Notes under the pieces: generated by a model
What the model saw: only the letters and a program-made list of their open reading frames with translations
The model's database searches: none
Told to the model about the DNA's origin: nothing
Assembly (NCBI RefSeq): GCF_020510685.1
Contig: NZ_CP075185.1
Coordinates: 1,736,001-1,800,000 of the forward strand
Direction: 5' to 3'
DNA: 64,000 bases
Source: Dechloromonas denitrificans
GTDB taxonomy: Bacteria > Pseudomonadota > Gammaproteobacteria > Burkholderiales > Rhodocyclaceae
Part shown: positions 9,972 to 19,843 of the stretch, piece by piece
Numbering within the stretch: position 1 is the stretch's first letter
Layout of the letters: the number at the start of each line of letters is the position of its first letter
Made by a program: the position numbers and the translations under genes

Positions 9972-10549
9972 CAAAGCAGCTTTTTAACCGTTGCGATGAC
10001 CTTGTCGGTTGGCGTGCCGAGATCGAGTACGGCGGCCAGGTGGCCGGCCGGATCGACGACATAGGTCGCTACCGTATGATCGACCGCGTAGCTGCCGTCG
10101 GCCTTGGCCGGCTGTTTGCCGTAGCCGGCCCCGAAAGCCTTGGCGACTGTCGCGATCTCGGCCGGCGAGCCGGTGATGCCGGTCATCGCGGGGTGGAAGA
10201 AGGCGGTGTATTCCTTCAGGTGCTGCAAGGTGTCGCGCTCCGGGTCGACCGAAATCATCAGCATCTTGACGCGGCTGCGTTCTTCCGGCGCCAGCGCCTT
10301 CAGTACCTGACCACCGGCGGCCAGCGAGGCCGGGCAGACGTCGGGGCAATTGGTGTACCCGAAATAAACCAACAGAACCTTGCCGCGCAAGGCTTTCGAG
10401 TCGACCGGGCCGTCCGCCGACTGCAAAACGAAATCGGTGCCGGCCGGCAACTTTTTGTCCGATGCGTTCGCTTCGCTACGGAGCAACCACGCCGCGCCGA
10501 GCAGCAGCGCCAGGCCAACGGCAATCCCGATCAGGGCGTATTTTTTCAT
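9971..10549 (-). CDS. SCO1/SenC/PrrC copper chaperone
   Basis: 192 aa. One N-terminal membrane anchor (residues 4-23) precedes a thioredoxin-like SCO domain. The copper ligands are visible: Cys68 and Cys72 in CPDVCP, and His158 in AVDHTVATYVVDP. SCO proteins pass Cu to the CuA site of cytochrome oxidase and, in some denitrifiers, to N2O reductase. This is the first gene of a six-gene operon that also holds an ABC exporter pair and a TlpA-like thiol protein. About 200 bp of non-coding DNA with hairpins lies upstream. Confidence 0.93.
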   Translation of the reverse strand: MKKYALIGIAVGLALLLGAAWLLRSEANASDKKLPAGTDFVLQSADGPVDSKALRGKVLLVYFGYTNCPDVCPASLAAGGQVLKALAPEERSRVKMLMISVDPERDTLQHLKEYTAFFHPAMTGITGSPAEIATVAKAFGAGYGKQPAKADGSYAVDHTVATYVVDPAGHLAAVLDLGTPTDKVIATVKKLL

Positions 10550-10566
10550 ATGCTGACAGATGCTGA

Positions 10567-10591
10567 AAAGGCAGACTCGAAGTCTGCCTTT
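10567..10591 (-). terminator. hairpin, probable terminator of the 10.7-16.5 kb operon
   Basis: Arms AAAGGCAGACT (10567-10577) and AGTCTGCCTTT (10581-10591) pair perfectly over 11 bp around a CGA loop. On the minus strand the stem is followed by a short T tract. It sits between the end of the degenerate hydrolase gene and the SCO1 gene, about 20 bp before the SCO1 start codon, so it could equally act in the SCO1 leader. Confidence 0.5.
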
Positions 10592-10688
10592 GGAATGAGT
10601 GGTGCCCAGGTCAAAAACGGTTGGCTGCCCCCATCAGCGCACCGCGCAGCGCGATGGTCAGGCTGGAGCGGCCATGCTAACCAGTTCG

Positions 10689-10731
10689 GCGACTGGCGGG
10701 TATGCGGCAAATTGCCGCAGACCGCAGTCGC
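10689..10731. repeat. nested inverted repeat in the SCO1 upstream region
   Basis: The outer arms GCGACTGGCGG and CCGCAGTCGC pair with one bulge. They enclose a perfect inner repeat, TGCGGCAA-A-TTGCCGCA (10703-10719). The element could be an operator for the SCO1 operon, a structured leader or a second terminator-like structure. No known RNA family is recognised. Confidence 0.4.
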
Positions 10732-10747
10732 CGGGTCGCATGGCTTA

Positions 10748-12007
10748 TCACGGCTTGCGCAGGGCCAAGCCCGAGGTCCCTATGGTTTTCCAGAACTGGT
10801 CGAGGGTTGCCAGCAGTGCCGGGGAAGTGACAGCCGGGTAGCTGGCGTAGAGGGCGACGACCAGGCGGCGGTCGAAGTCGATGTACAGGCTGTTGCCGTG
10901 CGGGCCGATCAGGGCGGCCCGGTTGCTGTCGCCGCCGAGGTGCACGAAGCCATAGCGCGCCTCGCTGCCTTTCGTCAGGCCGCGGATTTCCGGGGTGCGC
11001 AGGCCGGCCGAGGCGGTCAGGGTTTCGATGAACCAGCTCGGGATGCGGCTGCGATTGCGGTTGCTGCGGGTTTCGAGCAGCAGGTTGCCGAGCCGGGCGA
11101 AATCGCGCAGCGACAGGGCCAGCCCGTCGGCCAGTTCGGTACCCTGGCTGTCGGTCAGCCAGAGCACCGGATGTTCCGGGCGCAGGCGAGTCTGCAGTTG
11201 TTCGCAGAACAGGCGGGAGAGCGGCATGGCGTTGCTCTCGGCGAGCAGCCAGGCGAGCAGGTCGTCATCCGGATTGCCGGCGACGGCCGGGGCGCTTAGC
11301 TCGGTCGGCGGCTTTTCCCAGCGTCCCGCCAGGCTGAGCCAGGGGCGCATGCCTTGGCCGGTTTCTTCGGCCGTCCAGCCGCCGGCCTGTCGCCAGCCGG
11401 CAAGATCCTGGTCGTTCCAACTGCGACTTTCCTCGTTCTCGAGCAGGCGTTGCACCGATAGTTTGCGGATGCCGGGCTGTTTGCCCAGGGTCGGAAGATA
11501 ACGATTGACCGGGCGGTCGGCGGCCAGCTTGCCCGCCCCGATGCTGATCGCCCCGAGCAGGTTGAGCAACGGGCGGGTGGCCTGGAGCAGCAGGCGAGGA
11601 TCTTCGGGGCGCAGGCCGTGGCGATAGCTTTCGGCCAGAATGCGTCCGTTTTGCAGGATCAGGATGCCGTCGGCGGCCAGGCGGCTGTCGAGCAGGAACT
11701 CGAGGTCGCGTTCGCGCCCGTCGATCGGGTCGGTCGCCTTGGCAGCCGCGAGATCGAGCTGGCGCGAGGCCGGACGCAGCACTTCGCCGGCTTGGTCGGG
11801 CTCGAGGCGCAGGGCCGGCATGAAGATGTTGGCAGCCGGCAGCGTACGGCGCAGGTTTTCGGTGGTCAGCCAGTTGTTCTTGTCGATCCAGCGGCCGATT
11901 TTCTGCGGCCCGCTCGCCACGCTTTCGAACTGGCAAGCCGGGGGCGCGGCAATCGTCGGCGTGCTGGCCGCAATGAGGAGCGAAAAGATCGACAGCCGGC
12001 GCTTCAT
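10748..12007 (-). CDS. class-C beta-lactamase-fold protein lacking the catalytic Ser-x-x-Lys
   Basis: 419 aa with a signal peptide (LSIFSLLIAASTPTIAAPPA). The layout follows the NylB/class-C beta-lactamase group: DGILILQNGRILAESY, then LGAISIGAGKLAADRPVNRY, and near the end SLYIDFDRRLVVALYASYPA. At the position of the nucleophile motif Ser-x-x-Lys, however, the sequence is Gln142-Ala-Thr-Arg145, so both catalytic residues are absent. It is probably a non-catalytic, exported fold member (binding or sensing) or an enzyme in decay; the intact frame argues for function. It is the last gene of a five-gene operon, overlapping the YbdK stop by one base (TGATG). Confidence 0.75.
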   Translation of the reverse strand: MKRRLSIFSLLIAASTPTIAAPPACQFESVASGPQKIGRWIDKNNWLTTENLRRTLPAANIFMPALRLEPDQAGEVLRPASRQLDLAAAKATDPIDGRERDLEFLLDSRLAADGILILQNGRILAESYRHGLRPEDPRLLLQATRPLLNLLGAISIGAGKLAADRPVNRYLPTLGKQPGIRKLSVQRLLENEESRSWNDQDLAGWRQAGGWTAEETGQGMRPWLSLAGRWEKPPTELSAPAVAGNPDDDLLAWLLAESNAMPLSRLFCEQLQTRLRPEHPVLWLTDSQGTELADGLALSLRDFARLGNLLLETRSNRNRSRIPSWFIETLTASAGLRTPEIRGLTKGSEARYGFVHLGGDSNRAALIGPHGNSLYIDFDRRLVVALYASYPAVTSPALLATLDQFWKTIGTSGLALRKP

Positions 12008-13161
12008 CAGGAATTCTCCGCGGAGGGTTTGCTGGGGGGCGGCATCAGGCGCTCGGTGGCCTCGCGCACGACATCGTTCAGGTTGCCATGCTCTTGCTGT
12101 TTTGCGCGCAGCCAGGCGGCATCGCCGGCCTCGTCGGCGATGCCGTGGCGGAGGGCCTTGAGCCAGTGTTCGCAGCCGAGTTCCCGGGCATCATCGGCCA
12201 GGGTTTCGAACAAGGCTTTGAGAATTTCCTGCATCGGTTGCTGAGCGAGCGCGATCGGGTCGGAAATCATCGCCGCCATGCCATAGCGGCAGGCCTGGAA
12301 CTTGTTGTAGCGGGCAACATGAAGTTGTTTGGCGGTCTGCAGTTCGGGGCGGGTGCGGAGCAGCCAGCGGGCCAGCGATTGGGCCAGGGCGGCCAGGGCG
12401 ACGGCCTGTTCGATGGTCAGCGGGGTGTCGCAGACGCGGATCTCGACGGTGCCGAATTCCGGTTTTGGCCGGACATCCCAATACAGATCCTTGATGCTCT
12501 GGGCAATGCCACAGGCCTGCAGGAAACTGAAGTGCTCGACGAAGTCGGCCCAGCCGGCCAGGGGCGGGCACTGGCCGCTCAGCGGAAAGGCCGAAACGGC
12601 ATTGAGCCGCGCCGACTGGAAGAAACTGTCGACGCCATCGACGAAGGGCGACGAGGCGGACAGCGCGATGAAGGCCGGCACGTAAACACCGAGCGCCTGG
12701 GTCAGCCAGATGGCGTCATCGGCCGAGGTGCAGCCGACGTGGATGTGCTGGCCGAATACCGTGAATTGCTTGGCCAGGTAACCGTAGCGCTGGTAAAGGT
12801 CGTCGAAGCGCTCGCCCGGGCAGATGCGGCGCTCCGGCCAGCGGTGGAAGGGATGGGTGCCGCCGCCGCAGATGCCGATATTGTTGCGTTGGCTGTGATG
12901 GCGCAGCGTCTCGCGCAGGCCGCCGAGGTCGGCGGCGATGCCGTCGACGGTGGCCTGCGGCTGGGTGCTGATCTCGATCATGCTCTCGGTTATTTCCAGC
13001 TTGATCTCGCCGTAGCGGCCGTCGTAGTCGAGGCTGCCGATCAGGTCGGTGGCGCCGCGCGTCAGGTCGAAATCGCGCCGCGATACCAACTGCAGTTCAA
13101 GCTCGACCCCGAGGGTCAAGGCGGCGCTGTCGGTGAATTCGCCGAGTGGCGTGCTGCTCAT
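12007..13161 (-). CDS. ybdK: YbdK-type carboxylate-amine ligase (GCS2 family)
   Basis: 384 aa, full length for the family. Typical motifs are LGVELELQLV near the N-terminus, IGICGGGTHPFHRW (about 95-108), FTVFGQHIHVGC (about 134-145) and EFGTVEIRVCDTPLT (about 235-250). YbdK proteins have weak gamma-glutamylcysteine ligase activity, and their true substrates are mostly unknown. Here it lies in one operon with a glutamine amidotransferase/gamma-glutamyl hydrolase and two KefB-like antiporters, with 1-4 nt overlaps on both sides. That suggests a gamma-glutamyl compound that is made and hydrolysed to control ion exchange. Confidence 0.9.
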   Translation of the reverse strand: MSSTPLGEFTDSAALTLGVELELQLVSRRDFDLTRGATDLIGSLDYDGRYGEIKLEITESMIEISTQPQATVDGIAADLGGLRETLRHHSQRNNIGICGGGTHPFHRWPERRICPGERFDDLYQRYGYLAKQFTVFGQHIHVGCTSADDAIWLTQALGVYVPAFIALSASSPFVDGVDSFFQSARLNAVSAFPLSGQCPPLAGWADFVEHFSFLQACGIAQSIKDLYWDVRPKPEFGTVEIRVCDTPLTIEQAVALAALAQSLARWLLRTRPELQTAKQLHVARYNKFQACRYGMAAMISDPIALAQQPMQEILKALFETLADDARELGCEHWLKALRHGIADEAGDAAWLRAKQQEHGNLNDVVREATERLMPPPSKPSAENS

Positions 13162-14432
13162 GCGATACCTCCCGTCTCAGGCGTCCCGCTTTCGCATTCG
13201 CCCGATTTCTTCAAGGCCTGGCGGCACAGGGCAGGGCCGGCCAGTTCCATGATGGCGGCGGCGAACAGCGGCAAGGCCAGGGTCGAGCTGCCGATTTCCG
13301 GGTAAAGGCTGGCAATCTCGTAAGCCATGAAGACGGCGGTGGCCGACAGTGGCTGAATGCCCATGCCGACCAGCAAACGCTTGGGCATCGGCAGGCTGCC
13401 GCCGGCCAGCGCGAGGGCGGCCGTTTTGGCGATGGCGCGGACGGCGAGCAGGCCGAGCGCCTGAAGACCGGTCAGCCAGGTGAAGTTCTGCCAGGGCAGG
13501 GAGGCACCGACCACCACGAAGAGGACGATGGCGAGCAGCCAGTGGCCCTCCGGCAACTGCGTGTAGCGCAGCGTTTGCTGCGGGTCGTGGGTGGCCAGTA
13601 GCACGCCCATCAGGAACAGCGTGAGGAAGACCGGTACCGCCAGCATCCGGCCGATGCCGACGGCGAGCAGGGCGCAGGCGATCAGCACAAAAACCTGGGC
13701 GAGCGACCGTTTGGGGAGCAGTCGGGCGATGGCCAGGGCCATTCGGCTGGTCAGGCCGGCAATCAGCAGGGCTCCCGCCGCCACCCAGAGCGGATGGGCT
13801 AGCGCGTTCAGCCAGCCCTCGTTTTGTTCGGCATGCACGATGCCGAGGACAATGGCGAAAGCGACGAAGGAGGCGGCCGAACTGATCGCCGTATGCAGGA
13901 TTACGCGTTCGGTGACCTGGCCCTGGGCCTTGTATTCGTCGATGGTGAGCAGTACGACCGCCGGCGCCGAGGCCATGGTGACCGCCGCGGTGGCGGCTGC
14001 CCAGGCGGGCGTCAGGCCGACCACCCAGAGAGCGAAGAGGAAGATCAGGGCGAACGACAGAACGATGTCGCCCAGCGTACTGCGCAACAGTTCGGGGTTG
14101 CGGCCAAGCCAGGAAATATCCAGCCGGCGGCCGACCTCCATCATCAGCAGGCCGAGGGCTGCATCGGCAATCGGCCGCGCCTGGGCCAGTGCCTCGATGC
14201 TGATCCAGCCGAGCAGCGAGGGGCCGAAAACGGTTCCGGCCAGTACGTAGCCGATGACTTTCGGCCAGCCGACCCGGGCGTGCAGCCATTCGCCGATCAG
14301 CAGTCCGATGACCAGCAGCAGGCTGAACAGGGCCAGCGAATCGATGCTTTCCGGAAACGGCGGCAGGAAGAACAGCCGTTCGAGCAGGCTTTCCCAAAGC
14401 GAACGCGGCAGCGCGAGGAGGCTATCGAGCAT
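13158..14432 (-). CDS. CPA2-family cation:proton antiporter (KefB/RosB-like), copy 1
   Basis: 424 aa with about 12 membrane segments. Typical family elements are FSLLLVIGLLIGEWLHARVG, GYVLAGTVFGPSLLG, DAALGLLMMEVGRRLD and TMASAPAVVLLTIDE. There is no C-terminal TrkA-N domain, so this is the membrane part only, unlike full KefB/KefC. The 4-nt overlap with ybdK (ATGA) indicates coupled translation. It shares the operon with a second antiporter of the same superfamily. Likely transport is K+ or Na+ against H+, perhaps gated by a small gamma-glutamyl ligand made by the neighbours (inference). Confidence 0.88.
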   Translation of the reverse strand: MLDSLLALPRSLWESLLERLFFLPPFPESIDSLALFSLLLVIGLLIGEWLHARVGWPKVIGYVLAGTVFGPSLLGWISIEALAQARPIADAALGLLMMEVGRRLDISWLGRNPELLRSTLGDIVLSFALIFLFALWVVGLTPAWAAATAAVTMASAPAVVLLTIDEYKAQGQVTERVILHTAISSAASFVAFAIVLGIVHAEQNEGWLNALAHPLWVAAGALLIAGLTSRMALAIARLLPKRSLAQVFVLIACALLAVGIGRMLAVPVFLTLFLMGVLLATHDPQQTLRYTQLPEGHWLLAIVLFVVVGASLPWQNFTWLTGLQALGLLAVRAIAKTAALALAGGSLPMPKRLLVGMGIQPLSATAVFMAYEIASLYPEIGSSTLALPLFAAAIMELAGPALCRQALKKSGECESGTPETGGIA

Positions 14433-14462
14433 GCGGTGTCCGATCGTCGGTGCCGGGCGAGA

Positions 14463-15245
14463 TCACCAGCGTCGGCCGCGCGCGGCGTTCAGGAAGCCGT
14501 CGAGAATCGGGGTGCAATCGAGCAGCTGCGGGCTACCCGGCGGGTGAAACTCCGGATGCCATTGCAGACCGAGGACGTAGGGCCGGCCTTCCAGTCTGAC
14601 CGCCTCGATCAGGCCGTCGCCGACGCTTCGCGCCTCGACGTGCAGGCCCTTGCCGAGGCTCTTGATCGCCTGGTGGTGGATGGATACCACGGCGCCGTGG
14701 GTGGTCTCGGGGTAGAGCTTGCTCAGGCTGGAGTCGGCATCCCATTCGATTTCGTGGGCATGTTTGTCGTAGTCGTCGTGCAGGTGGATGGCCGGCTTGT
14801 CGTATTGCGTGGCGATGTCCTGGTACAGCGTGCCGCCGAGCGCCACGTTGATCAGCTGGGCGCCCCGGCAGATGCCGAGCACCGGCTTGCCGGCCTCCAT
14901 GAACTCGTGCAGCAGCTCCATTTCATAGGCGTCGCGCAGGCGGTCGCCGGCCCACTCGGGCTGTTGCGGTTCCTCGCCATAGCTTTGCGGACAGATGTCG
15001 GCGCCGCCCTGCAGGACCAGGCCATCGAGATATTGCGGGTAGTCGGAAAGCCGGATGCTGCGCCGATGGACGATAGCGTCGCCGCTTACCGAGGGGATCA
15101 TGAAGACCATCACCTCGCGCGACATGACCCAATGGGCCACCGATTGTTCGAGATACTGCAGCGACTTCGACTGCAGCCCGCTGGCCCCGGGCAGGGGATG
15201 GTAAATCCGGGCGGAAAGGCCGATGCGTAAGGGACGTCTGCTCAT
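14463..15245 (-). CDS. class-I glutamine amidotransferase, gamma-glutamyl-GABA hydrolase (PuuD) family
   Basis: 260 aa starting at the ATG that overlaps the upstream antiporter stop (ATGA); the frame is open further upstream but that part is antiporter coding sequence. The peptidase C26 triad is present: Cys126 in LGICRGAQLINV, His230 and Glu232 in LGLQWHPEF. GLVLQGGADICPQSYGEE and HEIEWDADSSL match the PuuD/YvdE type. Relatives hydrolyse gamma-glutamyl bonds or act as amidotransferases. Sitting between two antiporters and upstream of a carboxylate-amine ligase, it may degrade the product that YbdK makes. The specific substrate cannot be read from sequence. Confidence 0.88.
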   Translation of the reverse strand: MSRRPLRIGLSARIYHPLPGASGLQSKSLQYLEQSVAHWVMSREVMVFMIPSVSGDAIVHRRSIRLSDYPQYLDGLVLQGGADICPQSYGEEPQQPEWAGDRLRDAYEMELLHEFMEAGKPVLGICRGAQLINVALGGTLYQDIATQYDKPAIHLHDDYDKHAHEIEWDADSSLSKLYPETTHGAVVSIHHQAIKSLGKGLHVEARSVGDGLIEAVRLEGRPYVLGLQWHPEFHPPGSPQLLDCTPILDGFLNAARGRRW

Positions 15246-16471
15246 GGTGCTGTTCCTCCGTGCGATTTGGCCGCCTCGGGCACTTTGGCCGGCGGTCGTC
15301 CGAGGATGAGTTTGCTGGCTTCGCCAAACCCCTTGATCGCGGTCTGCGTCGCCAGCGGGCCGCATAACTGCATCAGCAGTATAGTCGCCAGCAGCATGCC
15401 AACAAGCTTCGGGTCGAGACCTGAATAGAGCATTTGTGTGTTGGCGAGCAGAACCAGCGCAACGCTCGACATGGGTTGCAGACCGACGGTCAGCAGCCCC
15501 CTTTCCCTGAGCGAAAGACCGAGGCGTTTGCCGGCCAGGGCGCTGGCCAGCAACTGGCCGGCCAGGCGGGTGAGGGCGATCAGCAGCACTTCCGGCCAAT
15601 AGTCGCCGAGGTAGGCGATATCGAGCGCCGCGCCGGCAAGGACAAAGGTGATGACGAGAAAAACGCGGGCGTCGCTGGCGATACGCAGGGCGATGACCTT
15701 GCGTTCGCGGTCGATGCTGCGCACCAGAAAACCGAAAATCAGCATCGGCAGAAAGACCGAGACTTCAAGATGGATAGCCGTCCCGACACCGAGAACGATG
15801 CAGCCGAGGATCAGCAAGTGCTGGTGCTCGGTTTGCTTTTCCAGCTTTTCGGCGCCGAGCAGGACCAGTCCGGCACAAGCGCCGCCCAATATCAGCGAGC
15901 CGATGATGCTGCCCAGTCCTTCGCCCAGGCGCGCCAGCGTGCCGGCCGCTTCGCTGTCGTTGAGGAAGGGCGTGAGCAGTGCGACGCCGGAAAAGGCGAC
16001 GCAGCCGTTGATTGCAACCATCGTGTACAGCAGGTCGGTACGCTCGCCCCGGGCGCCGACGTCGCTACAGGTGGCAATGGTGATGGCCGGCGAGGTGGCG
16101 AGACAAAGGGCGGCGGCAAACAGCGCGCTACCAGTCGAAAAACCCCAGTAAGCGAACAGCGCGAAGGTCAGCAGGCCGCAGGTCAACGCAATGCCCAGGC
16201 CGGCCAACAGACGCTGCCGGCCGGCGCCGGCGGTGCTGCGCGGGACCAGATAGCCCAGCTCGAAAAGAATCAGGCCGAGGGCGAGGTCGATAATCAGCTG
16301 GATCGATTCGATATGAAAAGCGGTGATCCAGTTCAGGCCGCTTGAGCCGGCGAGCAGACCGAACACGACAAAGCCGGTGGTCCGGGGGAGCGAAAACAGG
16401 CGTCTCGATGCCTCGCCAGCCGCCAAGCCGCCCAGTAGAACGAGACCGAAAAGCTGGATCGAGTTGATCAT
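15242..16471 (-). CDS. CPA2-family cation:proton antiporter (KefB-like), copy 2
   Basis: 409 aa from the ATG reading MINSIQLFGLVLLGGLAAGE, where the first membrane helix begins; the open frame extends 44 codons upstream through the promoter and hairpin, so those are not used. About 12 helices are visible (GFVVFGLLAGSSGLNW, IDLALGLILFELGYLVPR, ATSPAITIATCSDVGARGE). A hydrophilic C-terminal tail of about 35 residues lacks a nucleotide-binding domain. It is the first gene of a five-gene operon. A GC hairpin followed by six T residues ends exactly at its start codon, so expression is probably controlled in the leader. It is only distantly similar to copy 1. Confidence 0.87.
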   Translation of the reverse strand: MINSIQLFGLVLLGGLAAGEASRRLFSLPRTTGFVVFGLLAGSSGLNWITAFHIESIQLIIDLALGLILFELGYLVPRSTAGAGRQRLLAGLGIALTCGLLTFALFAYWGFSTGSALFAAALCLATSPAITIATCSDVGARGERTDLLYTMVAINGCVAFSGVALLTPFLNDSEAAGTLARLGEGLGSIIGSLILGGACAGLVLLGAEKLEKQTEHQHLLILGCIVLGVGTAIHLEVSVFLPMLIFGFLVRSIDRERKVIALRIASDARVFLVITFVLAGAALDIAYLGDYWPEVLLIALTRLAGQLLASALAGKRLGLSLRERGLLTVGLQPMSSVALVLLANTQMLYSGLDPKLVGMLLATILLMQLCGPLATQTAIKGFGEASKLILGRPPAKVPEAAKSHGGTAP

Positions 16472-16494
16472 AAAAAAGGGGGCGCAGCCCCCGG
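16472..16494 (-). promoter_or_regulatory. terminator-like hairpin abutting the antiporter start codon
   Basis: On the minus strand GGGGGC (16492-16487), a TGC loop and GCCCCC (16483-16478) are followed by TTTTTT (16477-16472), and the next bases are the ATG of the first operon gene. This has every feature of an intrinsic terminator, yet it lies in the 5' leader. The G-run is also the only Shine-Dalgarno-like sequence available. Attenuation, riboswitch-type control or ribosome-site masking would all fit. Confidence 0.6.
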
Positions 16495-16531
16495 AAATCC
16501 CCGTCAAAAAAGAAAGTACGCCAAAAAAAAC

Positions 16532-16560
16532 CGTACAACTACATTGCTGGCAAATATAAT
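16532..16560 (+). promoter_or_regulatory. predicted promoter for the marR-ompA pair
   Basis: A perfect -10 TATAAT (16555-16560) lies 17 bp after CGTACA (16532-16537, matching the last three bases of TTGACA). Candidate regulator half-sites CTGGCAA (16547-16553) and TTGCCAG (16587-16593) flank it as a widely spaced inverted repeat with centres 40 bp apart. Both lie inside the two divergent promoters. Confidence 0.45.
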
Positions 16561-16581
16561 TGATGCCTTTCGTCCACGCAA
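16553..16581 (-). promoter_or_regulatory. predicted promoter for the antiporter/ligase operon
   Basis: On the minus strand a -35 TTGCGT (16581-16576) and a -10 TATATT (16558-16553) are separated by 17 bp. This would give a leader of about 75 nt containing two U-rich stretches and the hairpin next to the start codon. It overlaps the divergent MarR promoter. Confidence 0.5.
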
Positions 16582-16601
16582 GCCAATTGCCAGGCCCCGT
16601 C

Positions 16602-17114
16602 ATGCCAGCTCATCCCGATTCGTCGTCGCTGTTAGCGATGGAGGTGTTGCAACAGTTCCGGCTGATCTACGGTTCGCTGCGCCAGTATTTCCGTCTGGTC
16701 GAGGAACGTTGCGGTCTGCCCGGCTCGCAGATGTGGGTCTTGCAGGAGGTTCGGCGCCGGCCGGAGATCGGCATCGGCGATCTGGCGGTGCGGATCGGCG
16801 TGCATCAATCGACCTGCAGCCTGTTGGTGGACAAACTGGTGGCCCAGGGCTGTCTGACCAAGAAACGGCACAGTGCCGATCAGCGCCGGGTCGGGCTTTG
16901 TCTGGCGCCGAACGGCCTGACGGCACTGGCCGCCTTGCCGGGGCCGGCCGAAGGCATCCTGCCGCAGGCGCTTGCCGAGCTGCCGGAGGTGGCCCTGAAA
17001 ACATTGCATATCAATCTTGATGCCTTGATACAACAACTACCCGGCAAGGATGCGTCTTATGCCGGGACGCCGCTCGCCGACCAGGTCGGCAGCGTCGATG
17101 GAGAGAACAGCTGA
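16602..17114 (+). CDS. MarR-family transcriptional regulator
   Basis: 170 aa if it starts at the ATG at 16602. An earlier in-frame ATG at 16563 lies too close to the predicted -10 box to be downstream of the transcript start. The winged-helix part runs from about residue 25 to 115: QMWVLQEVRRRPEIGIGDLA, then the recognition helix VHQSTCSLLVDKLVAQGCL, and the wing KKRHSADQRRVGLCLAPNG. It is transcribed away from the antiporter operon with overlapping promoters, so it is the likely repressor of that operon and of itself. The downstream lipoprotein gene overlaps its stop (TGATG). The inducing ligand is unknown. Confidence 0.85.
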   Translation: MPAHPDSSSLLAMEVLQQFRLIYGSLRQYFRLVEERCGLPGSQMWVLQEVRRRPEIGIGDLAVRIGVHQSTCSLLVDKLVAQGCLTKKRHSADQRRVGLCLAPNGLTALAALPGPAEGILPQALAELPEVALKTLHINLDALIQQLPGKDASYAGTPLADQVGSVDGENS

Positions 17115-17602
17115 TGGCCGGTTTGCTACGTATGATATTTCTCGCCGCTTTGCTGGCCGGTTGCGCCAGCGAGGCACCGCTCGAGCTGCAGCCATCGCCG
17201 TCCTTGGCGCCGCCGCGCGCCAAAGCCACGGCGACGCGGCGTGCCGTGCCGAAGCCAGAAACGCCGCTCGAGGCGGAAAACAATATATTTTTCCCAGCCA
17301 GCGCGGTACAGGTCGATGCGGATGGCCGGCGGAAACTGCAACGCCATGCGCAACGCCTGAAGGCCGATCCGAAGCTGGAACTGATGCTGGTCGGTTATAC
17401 CGACGACCAGGGCAGCCGCTCCTACCAGCTGGCGGTGGCCGAGCAGCGGCTGGAGGCGGTGTTCAAACTATTGCGCGGGATGGGCGTGCCGGGACGGCAA
17501 CTGCGTCGCTATCCGGTCGGGCGGGAAATGAGCATCCCGGGGTGTAGCGATGCCGCGTGTCGCGACAGCATGCGCCGGGTCGAGCTGATCTATCAGGATT
17601 AA
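17114..17602 (+). CDS. OmpA-family lipoprotein
   Basis: 162 aa. A lipoprotein signal ends in LLAGC with the lipidated Cys at residue 17, and a proline-rich linker covers about 22-52. A C-terminal OmpA-like peptidoglycan-binding domain (about 55-160) has NIFFPASAVQVDADGRRKL, LVGYTDDQGSRSYQLAVAEQR and a final RDSMRRVELIY. It probably anchors outer membrane to cell wall. It is translationally coupled to the MarR gene (TGATG) and therefore belongs to the same divergent unit as the antiporter operon, which hints at an envelope-stress role. Confidence 0.88.
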   Translation: MAGLLRMIFLAALLAGCASEAPLELQPSPSLAPPRAKATATRRAVPKPETPLEAENNIFFPASAVQVDADGRRKLQRHAQRLKADPKLELMLVGYTDDQGSRSYQLAVAEQRLEAVFKLLRGMGVPGRQLRRYPVGREMSIPGCSDAACRDSMRRVELIYQD

Positions 17603-17606
17603 CCGC

Positions 17607-18961
<1,355 letters not shown>

Positions 18962-18965
<4 letters not shown>

Positions 18966-19843
18966 TGCAGCGCCTTGCTCGCCGTGGCCTCGAACAACGC
19001 GGCGACATCGGCGGCCGAAAAGTGGTAATCGCGGTTGCAGATGTCGTCGCGAATCAGGATTTCGCCGTGCTCGGCGAGAATCGTTTCGGCATCCTGCCGG
19101 CCAATGGCGCGAATCATGTCGCCCACCTTCTCCCGGTCTTCCGGGCAGTGGTAAGTGACCGGCAGGGCGTCGTAGAGGCGCAGGCCGTGCGTCGCCATGT
19201 CCTCATGGAACAGCCGGGTGAGCAGGGTTTCGACATCGAGTTCGAGCAGTTCGGCCGGTTTGACCGTGCTCGCCAGCTGGCTGATGCGCGCCCAGCCGTC
19301 GGCGTCGTGCTGGTCGGCTTGCGGCATTTTCTGCAGGAACAGGCAGGCCGCGGCTTGTCGGCCGGCCGTGGCAAACAGGCGCGACGGCTGCTGCTCCGAC
19401 TGCTCGAGGTAGTGCTCGAAAATGGCGGCAATGCTGTCGCCGACCATCGGGACAAAGCTCTGATAGGGCTGGCGGGCATCGGGCATGTCGAGGCTCATCA
19501 TCAACTGCCCACCCTGATCGGCGCCAAGCAGTGTCGGCACCGGCGCCGGTAGCACCACCGGGTTGCTGCGTGCCATGCCGCGCATTTGCAGTTGTTCGTT
19601 GCAATCCATCACCAGCAGCTGAATCGGCCCGTTGCCGCGCAACTGCAGCGTCAGGCGCCCGGGCTGCTTGAGCTGGCCGGCGATCAAGGCGGTGATGGCG
19701 GCCGTCTCGCCGAGCAATTGGGCGACGGTCGGCTGATAGTTGCGGTCGAATTGCATTTGTTGCCAGGCATCGCCGAGGTGCACGATCGCGCCGCGGATGT
19801 CCAGGCCGTCGAACAGGAAGCGGCGGACGAAGCTGTCGCTCAT
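18962..19843 (-). CDS. hslO: Hsp33-family redox chaperone with altered zinc-ligand set
   Basis: 293 aa, full Hsp33 length; the start is the ATG overlapping the upstream ArsC-like stop (ATGA). The N-terminal core is normal (QLQMRGMARSNPVV, GDSIAAIFEHYLEQSEQQPS). Canonical Hsp33 binds zinc through Cys-x-Cys and Cys-x-x-Cys near the C-terminus, and their oxidation switches on chaperone activity. Here the first pair reads HCPEDRE (Cys233 kept, second Cys replaced by Glu235), and the second reads RDDICNRDY (first Cys replaced by Asp266, Cys269 kept). Only two of four ligands remain, so zinc binding and the disulfide switch must differ. I checked both places against the DNA. Confidence 0.88.

Follow-up and report, generated by a model that had tools for sequence, protein, structure and literature searches.

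The locus described here lies in a 64,000-nucleotide (nt) stretch of the Dechloromonas denitrificans genome (positions 1,736,001 to 1,800,000 of contig NZ_CP075185.1 in assembly GCF_020510685.1, a single-contig genome of 4.62 Mb), referred to below as the window. Seven genes were verified between window positions 10748 and 17602 at the coordinates collected in Table 1. Five of them are transcribed from the minus strand in the order CPA-A, C26, CPA-B, GCS2, and NylB-like, and marR and an ompA-like gene, which overlap by 1 nt, diverge from this operon. A preliminary description made from the sequence alone had recognized this set as two CPA2 antiporters, a YbdK ligase, a glutamine amidotransferase (GATase)-type hydrolase, and a pseudo-lactamase, with divergent MarR and OmpA-lipoprotein genes; the coordinates and family matches bear this out. 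The tight junctions noted there were also found, namely, three overlaps of 1 to 4 nt (4 nt for CPA-A/C26, 4 nt for CPA-B/GCS2, and 1 nt for GCS2/NylB-like) and a gap of 30 nt for C26/CPA-B, although the junction counted there as the fifth is the fourth, since five genes have four junctions.

Table 1. Genes and regulatory features of the locus, in window positions
Feature	Positions	Strand	Basis
CPA-A, cation:proton antiporter (CPA)-fold membrane protein, 409 amino acids (aa)	15242..16471	-	PF00999, E 9.2e-23
C26, gamma-glutamyl hydrolase-type class I GATase-fold peptidase, 260 aa	14463..15245	-	PF07722, E 1.6e-52
CPA-B, CPA-fold membrane protein, 424 aa, core module member	13158..14432	-	PF00999, E 9.1e-22
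GCS2, YbdK-type ATP-dependent carboxylate-amine ligase, 384 aa	12007..13161	-	PF04107, E 2.7e-57; NF010040
NylB-like (class C beta-lactamase fold) pseudo-hydrolase, 419 aa	10748..12007	-	Orthologue profile against PDB
marR, MarR-family regulator	16602..17114	+	PF12802, E 1.2e-10; PF01047, E 2.1e-8; start codon uncertain, 16560-16602
ompA-like gene, Pal-like lipoprotein with LLAGC lipobox (by eye)	17114..17602	+	PF00691, E 4.2e-8
Candidate MarR operator, imperfect palindrome TATATTK-N5-MAATRTA (aligned form TATATTK-N5-CAATGTA)	16540..16558	.	Alignment of window and 14 loci (15 rows)
GC hairpin and trailing six-T run, immediately 5' of the CPA-A start codon	16478..16492	-	Terminator-like scan and palindrome scan

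Judged from their residues, CPA-A and CPA-B are not ordinary exchangers. PF00999 was the only Pfam domain found in either protein, and no RCK/TrkA-N domain was detected in them. For the exchanger KefC, the sections of PMC11150392 drawn on here describe a C-terminal RCK domain that binds glutathione and AMP and a strictly conserved D156, the Asn variant of which shows no K+ density. The corresponding sections of PMC6181914 give motif position 7 as Asp in 94% of a tree of ~6,500 CPA proteins and term it essential. HHalign, with a reference alignment that included two rows in a wrong frame, aligned Asn155-Gly156 of CPA-A to Gln155-Asp156 of KefC, and Ser184-Ser185 of CPA-B to Asn155-Gly156 of CPA-A; a separate HMMER profile match, made without those rows, placed the same columns at KefC Gln155-Asp156 and NapA Asp156-Asp157. 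After ten duplicate loci were removed, an acid in the KefC D156/NapA D157 column was observed in 0 of 71 CPA-B and 0 of 21 CPA-A rows, the window included. The residues found there were S (37 rows), A (14), T (9), C (8), N (2), and M (1) for CPA-B and G (19) and C (2) for CPA-A. Likewise, Asp at motif position 7 was seen in none of the 70 rows of the clade, a count that excludes KefC and L133, both of which have Gln-Asp (QD); loci and genomes are cited here by our own labels, L and G, respectively. The position before this column retained Asp in 2 of 21 CPA-A rows and in 3 of the 70 clade rows of the tree (L141, L167, and L075 CPA-A). Since the ion-binding residue is missing, the CPA-fold proteins may carry something else.

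The fold itself is predicted to be intact. The AlphaFold2 model of CPA-B had a predicted local distance difference test score (pLDDT) of 87.5 and gave structure matches, both breaks in the two crossing helices are predicted to persist, and the first break contains a proline that was invariant in 83 sequences. Single-sequence searches of PDB with CPA-A or CPA-B gave no match at E values up to 1, and an alignment profile was needed. The basic residue of transmembrane helix (TM) 11 (motif position 8; K307 in KefC and K305 in NapA) corresponds to K336 in CPA-B and was present in 70 of 71 rows. With the aspartates lost and the basic residue(s) of TM11 kept, the central site is expected to be net positive.

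Proteins of a sister group, similar in length, were also compared. All 18 of the members read have Asp-Asp, and 17 of these had no GCS2 in the fetched stretch, which for L179 was just 6.7 kb. The 13 members included in a tree built with the motif columns excluded fell on one side of a branch with a Shimodaira-Hasegawa-like approximate likelihood ratio test (SH-aLRT) value of 100. That tree places the Asp-Asp group inside the clade with a support of 87 and long branches, and a single loss of the aspartates is one possibility. The crossed broken helices and the TM11 Arg/Lys are common to the module proteins, this sister group, and the NapA-type CPA2 exchangers. The module proteins differ in that both aspartates are replaced, in an acid at position 99 together with Arg176, which are typical of the clade, and in being usually located beside GCS2.

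The pairing with GCS2 was supported by neighborhood searches, in which the genes were our own open reading frame picks rather than annotations. The C26 query identified 80 loci in the genome collection, 60 of which had GCS2 within the fetched stretch by profile, and a CPA gene was present in all 60. Only two loci, L057 and L080, had a CPA gene without GCS2, and both are short contigs that end there. Where at least 3.5 kb was available on each side (53 loci), GCS2 was found in 39. Besides the window, CPA-B was found in 70 loci, the NylB-like gene in 33, and CPA-A in 20 distinct loci, one of which, L127, is no more than a distant relative. The closest named relatives of the locus are from Dechloromonas and Azonexus; beyond the close relatives of the window, the core consists of CPA and GCS2, and C26 may or may not be present. 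When 396 genomes of the phylum were surveyed with a CPA profile, 28 clade genes were found outside the window's own genome, 24 of which had GCS2 within ~150 nt. Some of the loci used to build the profile had themselves been identified through GCS2 or C26; this selection affects the profile and leaves the surveyed genomes untouched. In a survey of the class, five of the seven GCS2 genes scoring above 460 bits adjoined a CPA gene. The GCS2 tree put the three unlinked rows (YbdK, L157, and L158) on one side, with a support of only 67. The co-occurrence of C26, GCS2, and CPA is more than chance. The gene set is widespread, which refutes an occurrence in this strain alone. Among the matches listed by literature searches, outside which most subscription papers fell, there was no description of the set, in agreement with the earlier statement that no described system is known to have these genes.

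Several variants of the arrangement were encountered. L127:3442-8198 is a tandem GCS2-CPA-GCS2-CPA, a duplication of the pair, and L170 is a second cluster with two CPA genes (C26-CPA-GCS2-CPA). In the clade members L165, L169, L171, and L172, the ion site reads Asn-Asn, and their genomes yielded no GCS2. Two further candidate explanations for the locus were discarded. Open frames and strong conservation across genera ruled out pseudogenes, and PADLOC, run over the seven proteins as a search for a defense system, produced no convincing match, MarR and OmpA being matched only weakly.

The family signatures of the two predicted gamma-glutamyl enzymes are intact. E. coli YbdK is reportedly a weak gamma-glutamyl:cysteine ligase (Lehmann 2004). 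GCS2 is 40% identical to it, scored 471.3 bits against the NCBIfam YbdK equivalog NF010040 (cut-off, 425), and matched the YbdK structures 1r8g and 1tt4 with E values of 7e-91 and 2e-91. The setting of E. coli ybdK is different: its neighbors are ybdJ and hokE, and the 7 kb viewed contained neither a C26 nor a CPA gene. C26 scored 178.9 bits against the Pfam family profile (cut-off, 20.5), and its Cys126-His230-Glu232 residues were invariant in 19 sequences. The peptidase C26 fold and the Cys-His-Glu residues are shared with PuuD, the gamma-glutamyl-gamma-aminobutyric acid hydrolase, whereas C26 has its own conserved N-terminal region and, at 96.6 bits, falls far under the PuuD equivalog cut-off of 266. 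A second C26, at G000:C1:1019423-1020193 (L139:6403-7194), scored 406 bits against the module profile, is 70% identical, and is separated from the module, adjoining a CRP/PAS/GGDEF protein. The family signatures of the ligase and the hydrolase would fit the dedicated gamma-glutamyl compound proposed in the preliminary description. A comparable pairing of a ligase of the superfamily with a GATase-fold peptidase is found in the amidoligase system of Iyer 2008 (PMC2588565), where an amidoligase family lies beside a GATase-like thiol peptidase and a peptide metabolite was proposed. That family is stated to be other than GCS2, and the section describing it mentions no membrane partner.

The NylB-like protein gave no Pfam or NCBIfam match at 0.001. 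A profile of 32 orthologues matched the 6-aminohexanoate-dimer hydrolases over residues 38-393 (best E value, 7.9e-21), confirming the earlier guess of a lactamase-type fold, which is that of NylB. It differs from NylB in the SxxK motif, which is absent: Arg-Pro occupies positions 145-146 in 34 of 34 rows, with the Arg in the column of the SxxK Lys, and the SxxK Ser column holds Ser in just 2 of the 34. On these residues, the protein is regarded as a conserved pseudo-hydrolase. Its N terminus resembles a signal peptide by eye, and it is probably exported. The OmpA-like lipoprotein matched the Pal model TIGR02802 at 1.1e-15, which is under the cut-off of that model.

The 130-nt intergenic region between CPA-A and marR contains the candidate operator. 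In the 15-row alignment, the right half of the palindrome was degenerate in L052 and L054. A match to the pattern, allowing up to one mismatch, occurred no more than 250 nt from the marR start in 27 of 32 marR-bearing loci. Among the marR loci without CPA-A, which had not been used to derive it, the pattern was found in 12 of 14 (three being near-copies), where it sits upstream of C26. The whole genome of the window contains one exact match, at the marR/CPA-A region; two further places match with one mismatch, the same number as for the reversed-pattern control. From these matches, MarR looks like a local, one-target repressor of the module. The candidate operator shared by the divergent genes argues against unrelated promoters and supports the earlier view of the locus as one regulatory unit. 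No sigma-70 consensus promoters were found, with 1.0 expected by chance, and no known RNA elements were detected at the gathering threshold within positions 10000-19000. The hairpin 5' of CPA-A was present in 6 of the 15 aligned rows, in 4 of them with the T-run. It is possibly an attenuator or a hairpin between the ribosome site and the start. No Shine-Dalgarno sequence was visible at the CPA-A start; a longer in-frame reading frame (to 16603) exists, and the extension is not conserved.

Neighboring genes gave some hints. In seven loci (L059, L063, L064, L065, L067, L111, and L113), a DapB-like reductase is inserted between C26 and CPA-B (for example, at L067:8905-9657). The reductase keeps E.H...K....SGTA and shares 25% identity with E. 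coli DapB across 195 aligned positions; its presence may be a clue to substrate chemistry. Genes of the NhaD/CitMHS type were found at most 250 nt from the module in 5 of 77 GCS2 loci (L041, L071, L090, L100, and L126); two of the four scanned passed the NhaD cut-off, and those of L041 and L126 failed. Genes for Mrp, P-type ATPases, CLC, and Na_H_antiport_3 recur near some other loci. Other neighborhoods hold ordinary genes, many neighborhoods are without any ion transporter, and each of the three genomes examined for PF03600 had 1 to 4 matches. The apparent enrichment of ion transporters, counted without control loci, is suggestive only. In L126 (4860-7886), the region immediately upstream of CPA-GCS2 encodes the proton-translocating transhydrogenase PntAB, and the same two clusters lie upstream in L040. 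The stand-alone C26 genes of Accumulibacter (L095, L096, L097, L098, L101, L103, and L104) lie at distances of 41 to 2480 nt from a CLC chloride-channel gene, and six of the seven adjoin a conserved ~1,725-aa open reading frame.

We tentatively favor, with rather less than even confidence, a MarR-controlled module that makes and breaks a gamma-glutamyl compound and in which CPA-fold proteins of changed specificity carry an anionic metabolite. In keeping with its family, GCS2 would link glutamate, through its gamma-carboxylate, to an amine, X, and C26, with the catalytic residues of its family, would cleave gamma-Glu-X. The CPA-fold proteins, in which the crossed broken helices and the TM11 basic residue(s) are retained but the Na+/K+- and H+-binding aspartates are gone, would most likely have anionic gamma-Glu-X or an exchange partner as their cargo, rather than performing K+/H+ exchange. 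Under this scheme, the size of the inside pool would depend on the ligase, and X would be regained through the hydrolase. In the version found in the window's relatives, the NylB-like pseudo-hydrolase and the OmpA-like lipoprotein may act as envelope accessories. Gene order, operator conservation, co-conservation, motif loss, and catalytic signatures are the part of this reading taken from sequence; the MarR ligand, the identity of X, and transport with its direction are what we infer. With greater reserve, the clade could be a new class of CPA-fold carrier that has given up its cation site for a gamma-glutamyl or other anionic metabolite, nearly always with a YbdK-type partner, in many species with C26 and, here, with a one-site MarR.

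Several findings weigh against a carrier of gamma-Glu-X. In CPA-A, the position of CPA-B K336 is Gln in 20 of 21 rows. C26 was without GCS2 in 14 of the 53 loci having room on both sides, and a second C26 of the window's genome is separate from the module. No GCS2 was found in the genomes of four clade members (G492, G043, G526, and G442), and the GCS2 genes of L157 and L158 had no CPA gene in the fetched stretch. A cation could be served by the conserved acid at position 99. Genes for Na+/H+ antiporters in the vicinity of some loci point instead to ion homeostasis. Finally, in L184 (5753-8415), an Asp-Asp exchanger adjoins a distant GCS2 (208 bits). This pairing hints that the GCS2-CPA link is perhaps older than the loss of the acids, and L184 possibly represents an ancestral pairing with a working ion exchanger.

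The last three findings belong equally to the main alternative, that the proteins exchange cations and protons through a relocated acid, Glu99 in TM3 and perhaps Glu48 in TM1, with the gamma-glutamyl compound serving as an osmolyte, counter-anion, or co-substrate of an ion or osmotic homeostasis module. Position 99 was acidic in 64 of 70 clade rows compared to 1 of 13 sister rows (tree labels). However, the lost Asp is essential in tested exchangers, according to the cited sections of PMC11150392 and PMC6181914, and some clade members have no acid at position 99 (Gln in L044 and L165, Arg in L170-L172, and Leu in L143). The many neighborhoods lacking an ion transporter, and the counting of loci without a control set, also reduce the weight of the nearby transporters. 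We consider this alternative possible and somewhat unlikely.

The loss of the ion site, the close pairing with GCS2, and the presence of two paralogues in the window and in L170 could also be accommodated if the CPA-fold proteins no longer transported and instead served the ligase or its product as scaffolds or sensors in the membrane. This was deemed improbable because the helix breaks are predicted to be kept, the first with its invariant proline, and because charged helix residues that a mere scaffold would not need are conserved. The Kef-style control of ion/proton exchange put forward in the preliminary description, with a gamma-glutamyl metabolite gating K+/H+ exchange in the way that glutathione acts on Kef, is very improbable: PF00999 membrane proteins do adjoin gamma-glutamyl enzymes, but the module proteins differ from the glutathione-gated exchangers KefB and KefC in having no RCK domain, no QD or DD ion site (KefC D156 is missing from both CPA families), and a ligase and a hydrolase in their operon. 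In addition, a Kef-type exchanger that does have QD is encoded separately in the window's genome, by a 661-aa open frame at 806 kb. What stands of that interpretation is the single regulatory unit, the gamma-glutamyl compound, and the wide spread. A regulatory metabolite acting otherwise than in Kef, or ion exchange by a changed site, is possible.

YbdK-type ligases and many "cation:proton antiporters" have been annotated by family alone, and a clade that would be annotated in this way lacks the residue tied to the activity and pairs with a gamma-glutamyl ligase. The sister group, which retains the aspartates, can serve directly as an internal control. If anionic gamma-glutamyl transport is correct, annotations would be corrected in many Burkholderiales-like genomes, the CPA fold would have been turned to a new substrate, and the YbdK family would gain a physiological role through a gamma-glutamyl transport cycle.

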